In this document: piece by piece, positions 14,936 through 29,795 of the stretch | How positions within the stretch are numbered: position 1 is the stretch's first letter | Layout of the letters: each line of letters begins with the position of its first letter | Origin: Candidatus Brocadiaceae bacterium | GTDB taxonomy: Bacteria; Planctomycetota; Brocadiia; SM23-32 | DNA length: 35,790 nucleotides | Direction of reading: 5' to 3' | NCBI GenBank assembly: GCA_003551565.1 | Contig: PUMZ01000194.1 | Coordinates: 1-35,790 of the forward strand | The notes under the pieces: generated by a model | Told to the model about the DNA's origin: nothing | The model's database searches: none | The model's input: only the letters and a program-made list of their open reading frames with translations | Program-made: the position numbers and the translations under genes

Positions 14936-15391
14936 ATGGCTGAAAATAAATTTCCGTTCAGGTTCCGAAAATTGCTTGAACTGCGTGAACAGCAGCAGAA
15001 AATGGCCGAAATGGAACTGGCTGAGAAGGAACAAACCATCTGCAGGCAAAAAGCACTTGTCGATGAAAAAGAAGCTCTTAAGTGCAAAGCAATAAAACAT
15101 CAGCGCGAAGCTTCCCTTGCCGCGGATCTGCTGATGAGGTCGGCATGTGCGGCCCACCTCCGGCGCCTCAACGGACAGATCGCTGCCGACCGCAAAAAAC
15201 TGGACGGGCTTGTCCGCAGCCGTGAGCAGGCACGGGGAAAGCTACGGAAGGCGGCTGTGGCACGGGAAGCTTTAGAGAACTACAGGGACAAAAAAAGATC
15301 GGAATTTTTCGCCGGAATGGAACGGCTTGATGAAAGGGTTGCCGAAACCAACAGGATCAATGGAAGGGCCGTCTTGGAGAAAGCGCGATGA
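14936..15391 (+). CDS. fliJ: Flagellar export protein FliJ
   Basis: 151-aa coiled-coil stalk protein inserted into the FliI hexamer that connects ATP hydrolysis to the export gate. It shows the family N-terminus (FPFRFRKLLELREQQQKMAE) followed by uninterrupted charged helices to the end, including a RDKKRSEFFAGMERLDE segment typical of FliJ. Length is standard. It begins six bases after the fliI stop, and its own stop overlaps the start of the next gene by four bases (ATGA). Confidence 0.9.
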   Translation: MAENKFPFRFRKLLELREQQQKMAEMELAEKEQTICRQKALVDEKEALKCKAIKHQREASLAADLLMRSACAAHLRRLNGQIAADRKKLDGLVRSREQARGKLRKAAVAREALENYRDKKRSEFFAGMERLDERVAETNRINGRAVLEKAR

Positions 15392-16110
15392 AAAAAAAAG
15401 TGATAGTTATTGCTGTTCTGGCCACACAAACTCTGCTGGTGTTCGCTTTGAGTTTCGTAACGGTCGTCGTATGGCGCGGCGGCGTTGCTCCGGACAGCCG
15501 CCTGACCCGCCTGCCGGTTCTGGGTCCGCTCCTCGTTGCCGAAGAGGCAAAGCCGGTGCAGAAGGAAGCTCCCGATCCCACCTTCTCGGCCGTACCGCCG
15601 GTTTACGGTCCGGCGCTATTTTTGCAGCTCGGAGCGGAAGGGCGGGTGGAGCGGTTGGGCAGGAAACTGGAACAAAGCAAACTGGAACAGGAAAGAAAAC
15701 TCTCGGAGCTCCGGCTGCGTCGGAGGGAACTCGACTCCTGGAGCGATCAGATCGAAAAGGAACGGGAAGCTTTGAGGGAGAAGTTCGAGAGCAAGGCCGA
15801 GCAAATCGGCAGGAGAGAAGACGAGCTGGAGCGGCGGAGCGAGGAGCTGAACCGGCAGGAGCATCGCATCAAAGCGGCGGAGCGGAGCAATCTTGAAAAA
15901 ACCGCACAAATCTATGAGAGGATGGATCCGGAAAGAGCCGGAGCCATCCTCGCCGAGATTTACCGGGAGGGTGATAAGGATACGGCGGTAAAAATCATTG
16001 CTCTGATGCGGGACAGGAACGCTGCGCAGACGATCGCAGCCATGCCCGGTGAACACATCGGAGCCGATATCACCGGAATGCTGAAATACGTTACCACCGA
16101 GGAGAAATAA
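15388..16110 (+). CDS. MotE-like coiled-coil membrane protein
   Basis: 240-aa protein with one N-terminal membrane segment (residues about 5-27, IVIAVLATQTLLVFALSFVT), a proline-rich linker to about 75, a long Arg/Glu coiled coil (about 85-170) and a C-terminal MgtE-N-like helical domain (YERMDPERAGAILAEIYREG, then VKIIALMRDRNAAQTIAAM). This build matches MotE, the periplasmic chaperone/adaptor encoded with stator or fliJ genes in several phyla, often at the place where fliK might be expected. Translation is coupled to fliJ by an ATGA overlap, and motA follows after one base. It is not FliK: no hook-length-control C-terminal domain is visible. Confidence 0.75.
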   Translation: MKKKVIVIAVLATQTLLVFALSFVTVVVWRGGVAPDSRLTRLPVLGPLLVAEEAKPVQKEAPDPTFSAVPPVYGPALFLQLGAEGRVERLGRKLEQSKLEQERKLSELRLRRRELDSWSDQIEKEREALREKFESKAEQIGRREDELERRSEELNRQEHRIKAAERSNLEKTAQIYERMDPERAGAILAEIYREGDKDTAVKIIALMRDRNAAQTIAAMPGEHIGADITGMLKYVTTEEK

Positions 16111-16111
16111 T

Positions 16112-16879
16112 ATGGACATCGCCACAGCGATAGGAATCCTGGCTGGTTTCGTGGTGGTTTCCGGGGCCATCGTCCTTGGGGGAGGCGCCCTGATGTTCGT
16201 GAACGTGCCGGCCATGCTCATCACCTTCGGCGGAACATTCTGCGCCACCCTGGTCCACTTCCCGCTCGGCGATATCGTGGGGATTACCGGAGCGGTTAAG
16301 CGAACATTTTCCGTGAACATCCCCCTGGCCGAGGACATCATCAACAGCATGAGTGAGTATGCGCGCACCGCCAGGCGCGACGGGGTGCTGGCGCTCGAAG
16401 AAGCCATGTCCGAATGCAGGGACGATTTCCTCAGCAAGGGCCTTCAGATGATCATCGACGGCGTGGAGCGCGATCAGATCGAGGAAGTCATGCTCATCGA
16501 GCTCAACGCACTTCAGAGACGGAACCGTCTGGGCGCGAAAATACTTGCGTTTATGGGCGACGCAGCACCGGCCTTCGGAATGGTGGGTACGCTGATCGGG
16601 CTTATCCAGATGCTCCGGGAACTGGAAGATCCCGATGCGATCGGCCACGGCATGGCAGTGGCGCTTCTTACGACATTCTATGGCGCCCTGATAGCCAATC
16701 TGCTCTTCATACCACTTGCCGGAAAGCTGCGAAAAAGAGAAGAGGAAGAAGAAACTGTGCGGCGGATGATCATCGAAGGCTGCTGCTCCATACAGGCGGG
16801 CGTCAACCCCGCGGTGCTGGAAGACAGACTGACCTCGTTCCTGACCCCCGGCGAACGGAATGAACAGCAAGCAAAATAA
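16112..16879 (+). CDS. motA: Flagellar stator protein MotA
   Basis: 255-aa polytopic stator subunit; five MotA surround two MotB and convert ion flow into torque. Four membrane segments are visible: about 3-22, 30-50, and the pair after residue 150. The cytoplasmic loop keeps the conserved ARRDGVLALE segment with torque residues, and the third helix begins with the family signature APAFGMVGTLIGLIQML followed by GHGMAVALLTTFYGALIAN and IPLAGKL with both conserved prolines. A GAGGAGA ribosome-binding site precedes ATG. It is followed by two MotB-type genes rather than one. Confidence 0.96.
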   Translation: MDIATAIGILAGFVVVSGAIVLGGGALMFVNVPAMLITFGGTFCATLVHFPLGDIVGITGAVKRTFSVNIPLAEDIINSMSEYARTARRDGVLALEEAMSECRDDFLSKGLQMIIDGVERDQIEEVMLIELNALQRRNRLGAKILAFMGDAAPAFGMVGTLIGLIQMLRELEDPDAIGHGMAVALLTTFYGALIANLLFIPLAGKLRKREEEEETVRRMIIEGCCSIQAGVNPAVLEDRLTSFLTPGERNEQQAK

Positions 16880-16923: not shown

Positions 16924-17562
16924 ATGGCGGAAACTAAAAAAGGCGCGCCGAAATGGATGGTGACATTCGGCGACGCCGTGACACTGCTGCTGACTTTTTT
17001 CGTGCTGCTGATGACCTTCAGCGGGCCGGAAGAAGAAGCTTTGGATGAGCTGAGGAGGGGATTTTCCGCCGGAATCGACAGCTTCGGAATTTACCGGGCG
17101 AAACCGGGCGCAGATGCCGTGATCGAAAAAGAACTGAAGCTCTTGATGGCACGCATGGATGTTGGTACATCGCAATACCCCGAGAAATATGCCCGACTGG
17201 CCGTGCAGGAGATGCAAAAGTTTCACGAGGATATCGATGTCGAAGAGCTCCCCGATGAAGACAAGCTGAAAGCAATAAAAATAAGGGTTCCTCTCGATGT
17301 GATCTTCGGACCCGACGGGCGCCTCAGCGAACAGGGCGCCGGGATACTGGACCGAAACGCCGTCATTACGCGGGCAAAGAACTACAGCATCGTGGTCAGG
17401 GTCGAAGCGGGTGCGAAAGGCACTGATTATGCCTTAATAATAGCCGATTACCTGAGAGAAAGGGTATCTCCGGACACGCGGGAAATCGGCCTGTCAAACG
17501 ATTTCCAGCCCCGCAGCCCTTTGAAGGACGGGGAATGTCTGATCCTCCTGATCGAGGTGTAG
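16924..17562 (+). CDS. motB: Stator protein MotB with degenerate OmpA-like domain
   Basis: 212 aa, shorter than most MotB. The N-terminal stator helix is canonical: PKWMVTFGDAVTLLLTFFVL, with the ion-binding aspartate at position 17. The periplasmic part (about 115-212) has the OmpA-like opening (IRVPLDVIFGPDGRLSEQGA) but the peptidoglycan-binding block is missing: the GHTD motif and the following NweLS..RA segment collapse to RVEAGAKGTDYALIIADYL. So it probably conducts ions but may not grip peptidoglycan by itself. A GAGGA ribosome-binding site is seven bases upstream. The next gene starts five bases after its stop and uses a ribosome-binding site inside this gene, so the two products are likely made together. 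Confidence 0.9.
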   Translation: MAETKKGAPKWMVTFGDAVTLLLTFFVLLMTFSGPEEEALDELRRGFSAGIDSFGIYRAKPGADAVIEKELKLLMARMDVGTSQYPEKYARLAVQEMQKFHEDIDVEELPDEDKLKAIKIRVPLDVIFGPDGRLSEQGAGILDRNAVITRAKNYSIVVRVEAGAKGTDYALIIADYLRERVSPDTREIGLSNDFQPRSPLKDGECLILLIEV

Positions 17563-17566
17563 CAGC

Positions 17567-18325
17567 GTGAACCTCCTGAGAAAGAGTGCGAAAGAAGACG
17601 ATGATGGCGAGGGCAACGGCGCCCCGGCTTTCATGGTCTATTACTGCAGCGTTATGATCCTGCTGCTGGCCTTTTTCATCGTGCTGCAGGCGTTTGCAGA
17701 AGAACGGCATGAAGAGATGTTTTACAGGGGAAGGGGCTCCTTCATCAGCGCGCTGGATGCGTTCGGGCTTGGGACCCTGAGCCCGGATCTCAGCCGAAAT
17801 CCGAGCAGAAAGATCGCACCGCAATACAAACCGGAGGAAGGCGCCGACAGGGAACCCACCGACCAGAGAATCGACCCCGACACCGAAGCAGCCCGGAAAA
17901 TCATGATGGAACTGGCCAGGGAGATGGAACTCGAACATGTTGAGGGGGCCACCGGTTACAGGGTGGAGATTGCCACCCCGGTCGAATACAGACCCGGCAA
18001 GACGGCCCTGACGGAAGAAGAGAAGCGGATCCTCAAAAGGGTGGGCCCGAGACTGGAAGGCCGGATCCGGGCCCACGGCTTCGTGGTGAGGATCAGTTCC
18101 GCAATGCCCGGCGGGCCGGAGGATCAGGTGGGGCAACGGGTCGACGAAGTGCTGAAACTGGCCACCATGGTCCGCAGCACATTGATATCCGGTATGAGCC
18201 CCCGGGGGCGCAGCATGGCAGAACAACACATATACTCTTTTGTCCGAAACGACGGGGACGGTCGGGCCGCCAACGGAGAAACCCGGAACTTCAATCTGGT
18301 TTTGACCCAGCCGTATACGGATTAG
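17567..18325 (+). CDS. MotB paralogue lacking the ion-binding aspartate
   Basis: 252 aa. The N-terminus aligns without gaps to the upstream MotB: APAFMVYYCSVMILLLAFF against APKWMVTFGDAVTLLLTFF. The aspartate of FGD is replaced by serine (YCS, residue about 28), so the essential ion-binding carboxylate of stator B subunits is absent. The C-terminal domain keeps an OmpA-like outline (YRPGKTALTEEEKRIL, IRAHGFVVRISSAMPGG) but no GHTD or LS..RA motif. Start GTG 17567 has GAGGTG within the end of motB, giving coupled synthesis. It may form MotA5-B-B' heteromers, or be a structural or regulatory stator partner. It is not simply a pseudogene: the frame is intact and its spacing is operon-like. Confidence 0.8.
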   Translation: MNLLRKSAKEDDDGEGNGAPAFMVYYCSVMILLLAFFIVLQAFAEERHEEMFYRGRGSFISALDAFGLGTLSPDLSRNPSRKIAPQYKPEEGADREPTDQRIDPDTEAARKIMMELAREMELEHVEGATGYRVEIATPVEYRPGKTALTEEEKRILKRVGPRLEGRIRAHGFVVRISSAMPGGPEDQVGQRVDEVLKLATMVRSTLISGMSPRGRSMAEQHIYSFVRNDGDGRAANGETRNFNLVLTQPYTD

Positions 18326-18418: not shown

Positions 18419-18925
18419 GTGAACAACGCCATTCCCGGAAGCGGAAATATCATGGGGCGTCGTGACGGAGTCGGATCCGTGATGGCGCTGTTACTGTTGT
18501 CCACCAGTATCCTCTTCGTGGCCCTGGGGGTTGCGGCTGCAGTCCTCGTTATGCGTCCGGGCAAAGAATCTTTACCGGAGGCGGAAGCGCCGCGTGGACG
18601 AAAGACGGCGGAGGTCACGTTCCGGACGGTGGTGGTGAATCTGAAAGGAGAACGGCTGACCCGTCTTGTGCAGACAACAGTTGCGGTGCAGGTGCAGGGT
18701 GAGCGCAGACGAGAACTTGAGGCGCTGTTGGAAGACAGGAAAGTGCTGTTCCTGAACTGGTTGATAAAACACCTGTCCGACAAAACGATCAAAGATGTGG
18801 AAGGGGCTGCGGCCCTGCGAAAACTCCAAAGGGAAATCGAGGACGGGTTCAACGCCATTCTCGCTTCCATAGGTACGCCGTTTGAAATCGAAGCCGTCCT
18901 TTTCGAGGAGTTCAATGTGCAATGA
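18419..18925 (+). CDS. fliL: Flagellar basal body-associated protein FliL
   Basis: 168-aa single-span inner-membrane protein that rings the stator in other bacteria and stabilises it. One membrane segment at about 22-45 (SVMALLLLSTSILFVALGVA), then the periplasmic stomatin-like FliL domain: TFRTVVVNLKGERLTRLVQT, ALLEDRKVLFLNWLIKHLSD and the family ending VLFEEFNVQ. GTG 18419 is preceded by GGGGGA; ATG 18452 is a possible later start. The stop overlaps fliM (ATGA). Given the degenerate peptidoglycan-binding domains of the two MotB proteins, FliL could carry extra weight in holding the stator here. Confidence 0.88.
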   Translation: MNNAIPGSGNIMGRRDGVGSVMALLLLSTSILFVALGVAAAVLVMRPGKESLPEAEAPRGRKTAEVTFRTVVVNLKGERLTRLVQTTVAVQVQGERRRELEALLEDRKVLFLNWLIKHLSDKTIKDVEGAAALRKLQREIEDGFNAILASIGTPFEIEAVLFEEFNVQ

Positions 18926-25094: not shown

Positions 25095-28000
25095 ATGCAA
25101 AAGATATTTAGATACTTGCCCATGGATGAAGTCTTCAGCGGTGTTCTGTCGTTATTTCCCGGCAATCCGGGCAGAAGTTTGCTGCTGACGGCCCTCATCA
25201 TGGCCTCCGGATTTTTTTCTGTTTCCGTCGATGCACAGCCGTCGGACGTCGTTCTGGAATTTGACGGCGCCGACGGTTATGTCGAAATACCACACGCAAG
25301 TGCGCTGGATCCGGAGGACGATCATTGGACCTGCGAATTCTGGGTCAGGGTGCTCGAGCGCGTTGAAGGGGCCGATAAGTTCATAGCCAAACGGCACAGG
25401 GAGCGGGGTGTCGGCGCCGTGGGGTTTTATCTTGGGAACCGTTTTGCTCCGAATTGTGACGACGGAATCAGGCAAAACTTCGGGTTCGGAAGGATACCGC
25501 TTGATGAGTGGGTCCATATCGCCGTGCAGATTGACAGAGATGAAGACAAGTTCAGGGCCTATATGAATGGCGAGCTGGTTTCAGAGGGTGTTTCGGGGTT
25601 GACCGGGTCGGTTGCGTCTTCTTCCGACCTCATAATAGGCGGGGACAGTTTGGGACGGTTGCAGGGCTACCATTGCCAGATAAGCCACGTGCGCATCTGG
25701 AAAGGCGTGCACCTGACGCAGGAGATGATCCGCAACAACATGCATAATAAGGTTGCCGGCGACGCAGAAGGGCTGGCGGGTTACTGGCCCCTGGACGATG
25801 GCCGCGGCGGTACTGCACGGGACATCTCTGTGAACCGGAATGACGGGATCCTGACCGGAGAACAACAACCGAAGTGGATGCCTGCCCGGGCATTTGCGAG
25901 GAATCTGCCGGACGAAAAGAACGTCCAGCCGGGACAGGATGCAGTACTCGGTCCCGTGATGTTGCATGAACCGGAAGGAGAAGTCACCTATCAATGGTAT
26001 TTCAACGGAGAGCCGATCGCTGACGCCGAAGAGCCCTCGCTGACCATACAGGATGTCACGACCGATCATCTGGGGGTTTATTATGTCAAGGTCAATGACG
26101 ATCGCGAGGTGACACCGATAGCTTCCAACCACATGGAACTGCCGCCCTGGCCGCTGTGGCGGTCCGAACTGGAGGGCAAAATTGCAGAACGGGGGGACAC
26201 CGTTACTCTCGGCCCTGTGGAACTGTACGCGCCGCGGGGTGAAGTCAGCTACCAGTGGTTCCGGGACGGGAACCCCATCGAAGGAGCCACGGGCAACAGC
26301 CTCAGGATTGAGGGGGTCCGGGAAGAGGATCTGGGCGTCTATTATGTGCGCGTTGACGATGAACAGGACATGACCCCGGTCACCACCGGCGATTTAAGGT
26401 TGGCAGAAGCGCCTGCATGGCCGATGTGGCGGTATGATGCCGCCCGGTCCGCTTCGGCGCCGCAAGTTTTAGAAGAGGATCTGCATCTGCATTGGGTGAG
26501 GGAACTTCCGGAACCGAAACGTGCCTGGCCGCAACAGCAGGACGACGGCCGCACGTTGCAGTTCGACCTTTCTTACGCGCCGGTGGCCGCAGGGCGCCGT
26601 GTGTTTGTCCCCTCCAGCGTTACCGACAGCGTTACGGCGTACTGCATCGAAGACGGCAGCAAGCTGTGGCGCTACTACGCCAACGGCCCCGTGCGCCTGG
26701 CGCCTGCAGTGTGGCGGGGAAACGTTTATTTCGTCAGCGACGACGGTCACCTGTATTGTGTCGATGCAGACAGCGGAGAACTCGAGTGGAAATTCCGCGG
26801 TGGACCGTCGGACCACCGGCTGCTGGGAAACGCCAGGATCATCAACTTCTGGCCGGCGCGCGGCGCTCCTGCCGTCAAAGACGGCAGGGTTTATTTTGCC
26901 GCCGGGATATGGCCGTTCCACGGCGTGTTCGTCTACGCCCTTGATGCCGCGAGCGGAGATGTCGAGTGGGTCAGCGATACCAATGAACGCCTGGTGCCGC
27001 AGGGCTATATCGCAGCGGGAACCGATAAGCTCGTTGTCGCGGGCGGAAGGTCCGCGGGATATTATTTCAATCGCCATACCGGCGAACTCCTTGAACGCAC
27101 CCGGAGGGGCTACGAAGCGCATGCGGTCGATGGAGGCCGCATCGGGGAGGTCAAACCCCGCTCAACGTCCGAGACGACCTGGTATCTCGTCCACCGGCTC
27201 GATTCCCCGAGAAAAGCCAAAGTGAATCCGATGCTGCAATCGCGGTTGAACACTGTCAAAGATCGGATTGAGGGGACTGTTTTTTATAAGCTGGCGGCCT
27301 ACGGCAGGATGATTGTCAGCACAGAATGCGGCAAGCTGTACTGTTTCGGTCCGGAAGAGGTTGAACCGCAACGGCACGCACACAATCCCCTCCCGCTGGA
27401 GCCGGAGGGTGGACGATGGGCGGAGGTGGCTGAGAGCGTTCTGGATGAACTGGAAAGTCCGGGCGGCTATGCACTCATGCTCGGAGCCGGGTCCGGCGGC
27501 TTGCTCAAAGAAATTCTGAACGGAAGTGACTTGCATGTCGTGGTGGTCGAATCGGATGAGGAACGGGTGAGGGAACTGCGCGACAGGTTGGCGGAGTCCG
27601 GCCGTTACGGGCGCCGCGCCGCGGTCATCAAGGCCTCCCCATCCTCGTTCTCGGTACAGCCCTACCTGTTCAATCTCGTGATAAGTGAAGACATTGCCGG
27701 CGCAGAAGCCGGCGGGGAGGCCCGAATATCTGCTCTTCTCAACTGGCTTATGCCTTACTCGGGTGTCGCCTGGCTCGGGGCTTCTTCGGAAGACGCCGCT
27801 GCGCTGGCGGCTGTCGCCAACTCCGCCGGTGTTGACCGGGTATCGATTGAGGCGCGGGAGGATCACCTTTTCGCCACCCGAGATGGCCCGCTGACCGGCG
27901 CCGGGGAGTGGACCCATCAGTGGCATTGTACCGCCAATACGCTCACCTCCCTGGACAGCCGGGTGCGACTGCCCCTTGGTCTGTTGTGGTTCGGCGGTCC

Positions 28001-29795
28001 CACAAATCACAACATTCTGCCGCGCCATGCGCGCGGGCCCCGCCCCCAGGTTGCGGGGGGACGCCTGGTGTTTCTTGGGCCGGACACCATTGCGGCGCGC
28101 TGTGTCTATTCGGGACGCCATTTGTGGGAACGCGGCTTCCACGGTATCGGAGGGCCTTTCGATACCACGTCTCACCAGGCGGGCACTGCCTATATCGGCA
28201 GTCCGTTTGTAACCCTGCCCGACAGCATATACCTGCGCCATGACGGTATCGTTCATCGCCTCGACCCGGCAACCGGAGACACGCTGGCGGAATTCGAACC
28301 GCCGGGCAGAGCGCTGGAAGAAATATACGCGGCGGAAAAACTGGATGGCCTCATGGGCCTCGGGCGGAGGGAGCGTGCGCCGGACTGGGGACACATCAGC
28401 GTCCAGGGCGACTTTTTGATAACGACATCGGAACCGCATATGTTTGAAGGAGAGAGGTTGGGAGATCTTGAAAGCCACAGCGGATCCTCAAGCAGACTTC
28501 TTGCAGTGATGAACCGCTATAACGGTGACGTGTTATGGCAGCGGAAGGGCGATGCAGGCTTCCGGCACAATGCCATCATCAGCTCGGGAGACGTTCTCTT
28601 CGCCGTGGACGGGTTGTCCGAGGGAGCGCTTGCTTACCTGGCCCGCCGCGGCAAACAACCCGAAGATAATTCGCAACTGATGGCGCTCGATATCCGGACG
28701 GGGAAAGAACTCTGGGTGAAAAACAGCGAAGTTTTTGCCACCTTTTTACTCTACAGCGACGACCATGACATCCTTGTCGAGGGCGGGAGCTATGACCTGG
28801 ATAACCGGCGTATTCGCCGCGGCCTCGTCCTGCCCGGGGAACCCGAAATCGTCTCCGCCCGCCGTGGCCGTGACGGACAGCTCCTGTGGGAAGGAATCGA
28901 CCTGCGGCTGCCCGGTGCGGTCGCCGGAGAGATGCTTATTTCGGGATCGCAGAATAAATCCATATCGTTGCTGAGCGGTGAAACGTGGATGCGGGAACAG
29001 CCGCTGACAGGAGAAAAAAGCAACTGGACATATTCCAGGGCCGGAAAGGGTTGCGACATCATCAACGCAAGTCAACACCTGCTGTTGTTCCGCGCCGGAG
29101 ATGCAAGCTATCATGATCTGGAACATGATTCCGGACAGGGGTATTTTCACGGTTTTCGCAGCGGATGTACCACGAACCTCATACCCGCCGATGGTGTACT
29201 CAGCGCACTTGATTATACGCGCACCTGCAACTGTTCCTATTCCCATCAAACATCACTGGCCATGGTCAATATGCCCGATGGGCCGGGCGTGGATTTCTGG
29301 ACGCTCCACGAGGGATCACCACCTGACCCGGCGGGATTCGGTTTGAATTTCGGCGCACCCGGACGCAGGGTCGATGTCGAGGGTACGGGCTTTGTATGGC
29401 ATGACCGTTCCGGGACGCACCGGCGCCACCCGTCCGCTATCAAAGACAACGGCGGCGGCATCGGCTGGGTGGCCGCATCGGGGCGCGAAACAAGCGGCAC
29501 GATAACGATCAACGACCTGATCGACACCACGTATACGGTCCGCCTCCACTTTGCCGAGCCCGACGAAGAGATCGGCCCGGGCGAGCGGGTATTCGACGTG
29601 CTCATCGATGGCGAAAAGGTTCTCGACGGATTCGATATCGTACGCCAAACCGGTGGCGCTTTGCGCGGAGTGGTCAAGGAATTCTCCATGGTTGTGGAGG
29701 GCAGCCGGATGAGCCTGGAGCTCCGCAGCTGCGAAGATTCTCAGCGCGATCCGGTTATCAGCGGCATCGAAGTGCATGCAGAGGGTTACGAATGA
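25095..29795 (+). CDS. Giant secreted LamG-Ig-PQQ propeller-methyltransferase-malectin protein
   Basis: 1566 aa. Signal peptide (SLLLTALIMASGFFSVSVDA, residues about 35-52). Domains: LamG/concanavalin-like about 52-256 (VVLEFDGADGYVEIPHASAL, WVHIAVQIDRDEDKF, GYWPLDDGRGG); two Ig domains about 271-346 and 361-436 that are near duplicates (VTYQWYFNGEPIADA and VSYQWFRDGNPIEGA); first PQQ-type beta-propeller half about 442-752 (LWRYYANGPVRLAPAVWRGN, FRGGPSDHRLLGNARIINFW); a Rossmann methyltransferase-like domain about 775-933 with MLGAGSGG and acidic VVVES; second propeller half about 936-1386; malectin-like carbohydrate-binding domain about 1412-1565 (YTVRLHFAEPDEEIGPGERV). Substrate unknown; glycan binding is suggested by the end domains. 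ATG 25125 is a possible later start. Confidence 0.85.
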   Translation: MQKIFRYLPMDEVFSGVLSLFPGNPGRSLLLTALIMASGFFSVSVDAQPSDVVLEFDGADGYVEIPHASALDPEDDHWTCEFWVRVLERVEGADKFIAKRHRERGVGAVGFYLGNRFAPNCDDGIRQNFGFGRIPLDEWVHIAVQIDRDEDKFRAYMNGELVSEGVSGLTGSVASSSDLIIGGDSLGRLQGYHCQISHVRIWKGVHLTQEMIRNNMHNKVAGDAEGLAGYWPLDDGRGGTARDISVNRNDGILTGEQQPKWMPARAFARNLPDEKNVQPGQDAVLGPVMLHEPEGEVTYQWYFNGEPIADAEEPSLTIQDVTTDHLGVYYVKVNDDREVTPIASNHMELPPWPLWRSELEGKIAERGDTVTLGPVELYAPRGEVSYQWFRDGNPIEGATGNSLRIEGVREEDLGVYYVRVDDEQDMTPVTTGDLRLAEAPAWPMWRYDAARSASAPQVLEEDLHLHWVRELPEPKRAWPQQQDDGRTLQFDLSYAPVAAGRRVFVPSSVTDSVTAYCIEDGSKLWRYYANGPVRLAPAVWRGNVYFVSDDGHLYCVDADSGELEWKFRGGPSDHRLLGNARIINFWPARGAPAVKDGRVYFAAGIWPFHGVFVYALDAASGDVEWVSDTNERLVPQGYIAAGTDKLVVAGGRSAGYYFNRHTGELLERTRRGYEAHAVDGGRIGEVKPRSTSETTWYLVHRLDSPRKAKVNPMLQSRLNTVKDRIEGTVFYKLAAYGRMIVSTECGKLYCFGPEEVEPQRHAHNPLPLEPEGGRWAEVAESVLDELESPGGYALMLGAGSGGLLKEILNGSDLHVVVVESDEERVRELRDRLAESGRYGRRAAVIKASPSSFSVQPYLFNLVISEDIAGAEAGGEARISALLNWLMPYSGVAWLGASSEDAAALAAVANSAGVDRVSIEAREDHLFATRDGPLTGAGEWTHQWHCTANTLTSLDSRVRLPLGLLWFGGPTNHNILPRHARGPRPQVAGGRLVFLGPDTIAARCVYSGRHLWERGFHGIGGPFDTTSHQAGTAYIGSPFVTLPDSIYLRHDGIVHRLDPATGDTLAEFEPPGRALEEIYAAEKLDGLMGLGRRERAPDWGHISVQGDFLITTSEPHMFEGERLGDLESHSGSSSRLLAVMNRYNGDVLWQRKGDAGFRHNAIISSGDVLFAVDGLSEGALAYLARRGKQPEDNSQLMALDIRTGKELWVKNSEVFATFLLYSDDHDILVEGGSYDLDNRRIRRGLVLPGEPEIVSARRGRDGQLLWEGIDLRLPGAVAGEMLISGSQNKSISLLSGETWMREQPLTGEKSNWTYSRAGKGCDIINASQHLLLFRAGDASYHDLEHDSGQGYFHGFRSGCTTNLIPADGVLSALDYTRTCNCSYSHQTSLAMVNMPDGPGVDFWTLHEGSPPDPAGFGLNFGAPGRRVDVEGTGFVWHDRSGTHRRHPSAIKDNGGGIGWVAASGRETSGTITINDLIDTTYTVRLHFAEPDEEIGPGERVFDVLIDGEKVLDGFDIVRQTGGALRGVVKEFSMVVEGSRMSLELRSCEDSQRDPVISGIEVHAEGYE

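Follow-up and report, generated by a model that had tools for sequence, protein, structure and literature searches.

Two unequal MotB subunits, one of them without the ion-binding aspartate, in the flagellar operon of Brocadiia: a candidate stator with a single ion site

The window analysed here, a stretch of 35,790 nucleotides, carries a flagellar operon in which motA is followed by two motB genes, and the second of these codes for a protein that has Ser in place of the ion-binding Asp. We propose that the three products form a heteromeric stator in which five MotA subunits would surround one MotB1 and one MotB2, with MotB1 contributing the only ion-binding carboxylate. From the sequence evidence, we put the probability of this arrangement at about 0.63. 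The host belongs to the class Brocadiia (Planctomycetota), which it shares with Brocadia, Kuenenia and Scalindua. A wider claim, to which we give slightly better than even odds, is that Brocadiia including the anammox bacteria have an obligately asymmetric MotA5:MotB1:MotB2 stator with one carboxylate, which would use about 5 ions per turn and would derive from an ancestral two-site heterodimer that persists in other Planctomycetota.

The operon is encoded on the plus strand of the window in the order fliF, fliG, fliH, fliI, fliJ, a MotE/FlbB-like gene, motA, motB1, motB2, fliL, fliM, fliN, with the motB pair next to motA. The features of the stator region are:

15388..16110, plus strand: MotE/FlbB-like coiled-coil protein, a member of the flagellar operon directly upstream of motA (weak matches to FlbB of NCBIfam and to MgtE_N; the gene order is the same in relatives)
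16112..16879, plus strand: MotA, PomA-like (MotA_ExbB, 97 bits; the best NCBIfam model is PomA with 250 bits, which is under that model's own cut-off)
16924..17562, plus strand: MotB1, 212 aa, ATG start, one transmembrane helix and a degenerate OmpA-like periplasmic domain (MotB_plug, 42.8 bits; AlphaFold2 model)
16972..16974, plus strand: GAC codon of Asp17, the single ion-binding carboxylate of MotB1 (all 75 readable MotB1 rows have Asp)
17567..18325, plus strand: MotB2, 252 aa, GTG start, an Asp-less MotB paralogue (MotB_plug, 27.3 bits; phylum-wide MotB2 clade, SH-aLRT 98)
17648..17650, plus strand: AGC codon of Ser28 of MotB2, in place of the ion-binding Asp (alignment with MotB1)
17735..17743, plus strand: GSF of the MotB2-specific motif GxGSFxxALxxFGLxG, directly after the transmembrane helix (motif conserved in MotB2 throughout the phylum)
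18419..18925, plus strand: FliL, a stator-associated protein, directly downstream of motB2 (PF03748, 45.4 bits)

Both MotB proteins pass the curated cut-off of the MotB_plug family (PF13677, 24 bits), and they are the only two MotB_plug proteins found in the genome from which the window originates. The stop codon of MotB1 and the start codon of MotB2 are separated by 4 nt, and a GAGGTG-like ribosome-binding sequence, which overlaps the end of MotB1, is located just 5′ of the GTG of MotB2. Gap and ribosome-binding sequence are consistent with coupled translation of the two proteins. Outside the stator region, positions 591-1712 code for a flagellin whose central part matches the pilus-formation N-terminal domain (PF13629, 24.2 bits). 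A protein of 1566 aa encoded further downstream (25095-29795), beyond the flagellar operon, combines laminin-G, Ig-like, PQQ beta-propeller and malectin domains.

The MotA protein of the window aligns end to end with MotA and PomA of solved stators. The threonines of PomA in GTL... and LLTT..., which we take to be pore-lining in that protein, are conserved. Only one MotA was found in each of 8 Brocadiia genomes tested, 2 of which are single-contig assemblies, and all other matches are weak and in the range of TolQ/ExbB. As each of the 8 genomes has a single MotA, both B proteins must share it. In the genome of the window, only one stator A subunit was found; the sole other match, again weak and in the TolQ/ExbB range, is on another contig. 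MotA and MotB1 of the window align with the chains of the canonical stators MotA5MotB2 and PomA5PomB2 (PDB 6YSF, 6YSL, 8BRD, 8UCS and others). However, the canonical stators have a homodimeric B subunit with two aspartates, whereas the operon of the window provides one Asp-bearing and one Asp-less B protein.

The membrane helix of MotB1 (KWMVTFGDAVTLLLTFF) contains Asp17, which aligns with the Asp of PomB and MotB in solved stators. In the membrane helix of MotB2 (AFMVYYCSVMILLLAFF), the position aligned with Asp17 is occupied by Ser28. The earlier note had claimed that the aspartate of the first B protein is Ser in the second, and the alignment confirms this, with exact coordinates for both codons. 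The match of MotB2 to MotB from B. subtilis is weak (E 0.13) and places Ser opposite the Asp. The transmembrane helices of MotB1 and MotB2 from the window differ at many positions. A replacement carboxylate in MotB2 could be ruled out: in the 32 Asp-less helices no other membrane carboxylate takes the place of Asp, and 22 of them are free of acidic residues from -6 to +15, counted from the Asp position. The other 10 (Scalindua-type, f8) have an Asp only at -6, which is at the membrane edge and is where MotB1 has its invariant Trp. Sequencing or assembly error as the source of the loss was ruled out by its recurrence in independent genomes; being common to relatives, the loss is not due to chance either.

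The pore-helix signature LL-A-FF-I is nearly invariant in MotB2, with LAFFI being invariant among 17 MotB2 proteins, and 96% of the MotB2 helices have Thr at +3, the exception being the Ile of the window. Trp at -6, present without exception in MotB1 and single MotBs, is missing from Asp-less MotB2. The Asp-less proteins have Ala at +7 in 93% of the cases and a polar residue at +13, where their MotB1 partners are hydrophobic. The counterpart of +13 in E. coli MotB is Trp45, which has been reported to be at the B-B interface (PMC10659934). The asymmetry between the MotB1 and MotB2 helices at -6, +7 and +13 is consistent with a heterodimer.

The periplasmic domains were compared with the canonical MotB signature GHTD/LSRA/NRRV. 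In Scalindua, this signature is complete in MotB1 (GHTD and NRRV are kept) and partial in MotB2. The peptidoglycan-binding signature is gone from the MotB1 proteins of Brocadiaceae (TN.., no NRR) and preserved in their MotB2 partners (GHT-R/LSRA/NDRV), and a profile made from single MotBs scores these MotB1 with 32-49 bits and these MotB2 with 64-71 bits. Thus, with the ion site on MotB1 and the wall-binding residues on MotB2, each of the Brocadiaceae subunits is without what the other has. Of all sequence arguments for a complex that both subunits share, this complementarity of Asp and peptidoglycan motif is the strongest; in such a complex, MotB2 of Brocadiaceae may serve as peptidoglycan binder or anchor. 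In the window's own family, the C-terminal domains of both MotB1 and MotB2 are degenerate and without canonical binding residues, so that anchoring may rely on other proteins there. The AlphaFold2 model of MotB1 from the window has a confident OmpA-like C-terminal domain, which matches H. pylori MotB and OmpA periplasmic domains in PDB (E about 1e-4). That of MotB2 is poor (pLDDT 57), with weak MotB/PomB-like matches (best E 0.03), and this may count against the heteromeric reading.

The peptidoglycan motif that MotB2 keeps in Brocadiaceae would also suit a protein that stays outside the pore, as a membrane-tethered peptidoglycan-binding anchor or scaffold which recruits MotA5:MotB1(2) in a role like that of MotY or FliL. 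The lack of Trp at -6 and the polar residue at +13 in Asp-less MotB2 point in the same direction. A plain anchor, however, would have no need for the conserved pore-helix signature with Thr at +3, and the Asp-bearing orthologues of MotB2 are pore proteins by every sequence criterion. We consider it quite unlikely that MotB2 acts outside the pore.

Decaying genes typically lose catalytic residues, and the C-terminal domain of MotB2 is strongly divergent in the family of the window, as might be expected if MotB2 were a decaying duplicate. However, the MotB2 reading frames are intact in all relatives that were read. For pairs of related species with estimable dS, the omega of MotB2 is 0.08-0.35 and is usually equal to or below that of MotB1; the counts are by NG86, and several dS values are rough, as they are close to 1 or exceed it. 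Purifying selection thus acts on MotB2, and we consider decay, which is extremely improbable on these values, to be ruled out by omega together with class-wide conservation.

At 25 of the 26 named Brocadiia loci found by profile, motA, motB1 and motB2 occur in this order, and the remaining locus is a contig end that starts at MotB2. The cassette is present in the anammox genera Brocadia, Kuenenia and Scalindua. MotB_plug matches were obtained in 40 of 75 genomes from the class, with exactly two matches in 36 of the 40 and one match in 4. In two of the one-match genomes (G036, G046) an adjacent MotB2 was found with the MotB2 profile; of the other two, G056 is the genome with the contig end just mentioned, and G418 was left unread. 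MotA alone, used as query in the named genomes, gave no match, while the MotB2 profile did find loci. FliF is absent from all 15 pairless Brocadiia relatives that were checked, and thus the pair goes together with the flagellum. The motB1-motB2 pair is retained by nearly all flagellated members of the class that were examined, and no decay of the second gene is seen in the relatives. Of the two findings named in the earlier note as refuting its claim, a replacement carboxylate and a decaying second gene with no such pair in relatives, neither was obtained. In the draft genome of Brocadia carolinensis, one of the 25 loci (L058:1500-2316), the reading frame of MotB1 appears to be disrupted inside the membrane helix, by either a frameshift of the draft or a real lesion. 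Three high-completeness genomes from an anammox family (G016, G020 and G028 of family f5) have neither FliF nor the stator pair and have apparently lost their flagella.

Many further families of Planctomycetota share the motA-motB1-motB2 cassette, and most of them have Asp in MotB2. The tandem pair described in the earlier note stands, but its spread throughout the phylum, with Asp in both subunits in many families, had been missed. In a tree of 112 MotB proteins, all 45 MotB2 are on one side of a single branch (SH-aLRT 98), and MotB2 is therefore an ancient paralogue rather than a local duplicate. MotB1 has its Asp at all 75 loci where both proteins are readable. Among the MotB2 proteins of these 75 pairs, which include that of the window, Asp is present in 43 and has been lost in 32 (Ser in 23, Ala in 9). 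A further MotB2 at a contig end, outside the 75 pairs (L066), has Gly at this position. Outside Brocadiia, Asp is missing from MotB2 only in two genomes, which belong to families f47 and f72. The data fit between one and three losses, and a single clade of Asp-less MotB2 is not rejected (AU p 0.055). The Asp/Asp pairs from other Planctomycetota (e.g. families f82, f75, f79, f39) have the same cassette and belong to the same MotB2 clade but differ in that their MotB2 keeps Asp, and therefore look like the ancestral two-site form. One genome of family f39 (G371) has two separate motA-motB1-motB2 cassettes (L192, L203), with Asp in both MotBs of each.

A profile scan with one short pattern covered about 85,000 species, and among its best 80 loci every locus not from Brocadiia has just one MotB, which bears Asp. 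Tandem motB genes were not seen in 11 genomes of other phyla.

Both MotB proteins might also enter a mixed population of stators. MotA5:MotB1(2) would then be a two-site torque stator, and MotA5:MotB1:MotB2 or MotA5:MotB2(2) would be weak or inactive, serving to adjust torque or to occupy positions at the rotor, with MotB2 as a regulatory B′. MotB1 homodimers (MotA5:MotB1(2)) are compatible with the sequence, as MotB1 has all membrane requirements and, in Scalindua, keeps the full peptidoglycan-binding motif. However, with the loss of this signature from MotB1 of Brocadiaceae, MotB1 homodimers would be poorly anchored there. If MotB2 were a tunable brake, some lineages should have lost it, but the pair persists in nearly all flagellated members of the class, and the widespread Asp-bearing orthologues of MotB2 suit an ancestral full partner better than a brake. 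We regard a mixed population as unlikely. An asymmetric A5BB′ stator with a single ion site, as suggested in the earlier note, is favoured because there is one MotA per genome, because the losses of Asp and of peptidoglycan-binding residues are complementary, and because Asp is lost on one side only; that B and B′ share one pentamer is what we infer from this.

Asp-to-Asn mutants of homodimeric MotB are non-functional, which counts against a stator with one site. The published two-site models also count against it: in 5:2 models, two carboxylates alternate, each step being 36 degrees and one ion, with 10 ions per turn (PMC9389320), and one model assumes that both aspartates are protonated for rotation (PMC10659934). 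For the heteromeric stator we envisage the following. MotB1 and MotB2 would be made together from one operon, as is seen at the gene level, and would come together within the pore of the MotA pentamer, the only one available. Ions would bind to and leave from Asp17 of MotB1 only. The neutral Ser28 of MotB2 would resemble a permanently protonated site, which never blocks rotation and never carries an ion. As the second site would thus always count as protonated in terms of the both-protonated model, rotation would be gated by MotB1 alone. Extrapolating from the 5:2 models, one active site would result in about 5 rather than 10 ions per MotA turn, with 72 degrees per ion, and in half of the maximum torque per stator. 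The periplasmic work may be split too, the signature lost by MotB1 of Brocadiaceae being present in its partner MotB2, which would bind peptidoglycan.

A flagellar stator that conserves one B subunit without Asp would represent a natural experiment on two-carboxylate models. If the heteromeric reading is true, it allows a direct test of whether two sites and ten ions per turn are necessary for a 5:2 motor, for which the Asp-bearing MotB2 orthologues from sister lineages would be matched two-site controls. The suggested division of labour, with the ion site on one B subunit and the wall anchor on the other, is one that homodimeric stators cannot reveal. A published report of a conserved Asp-less flagellar MotB was not found in the open-licence literature, and the passages searched of a survey from 2025 on the evolution of MotAB make no mention of B subunits that are duplicated or without Asp (PMC12505986).

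Other systems with two B subunits are known. The gliding motor of Myxococcus xanthus has one A-type subunit (AglR) and two B-type subunits (AglQ/AglS), but it is not flagellar and the conserved Asp is predicted to be present in both B-type subunits; heterodimer formation between AglQ and AglS had not been settled by 2022 (PMC9389320). Aquifex aeolicus resembles the window in that two motB genes come after a single motA within one operon (PMC4525482). The N-terminal and transmembrane regions of its MotBs are 97% identical, with one Gly/Ser difference, and only the periplasmic parts diverge (PMC4525482). Chimeras of each of them are functional with MotA in E. coli (PMC4525482), and both Aquifex MotBs are thus ion-binding. 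The Aquifex helices are therefore near-identical and ion-competent, whereas those of the window have diverged and MotB2 is without Asp. The statement of the earlier note that Aquifex has two motB genes with one motA holds by this paper, and there is no loss of Asp there (PMC4525482). In family f84 of the Planctomycetota (L131, L145), there is a different tandem MotB pair with near-identical helices (RWLISYADFMMQLVCLFILLYSVSS) and Asp in both proteins, and its MotA is on a long branch. This pair looks like an independent duplication, as in Aquifex.
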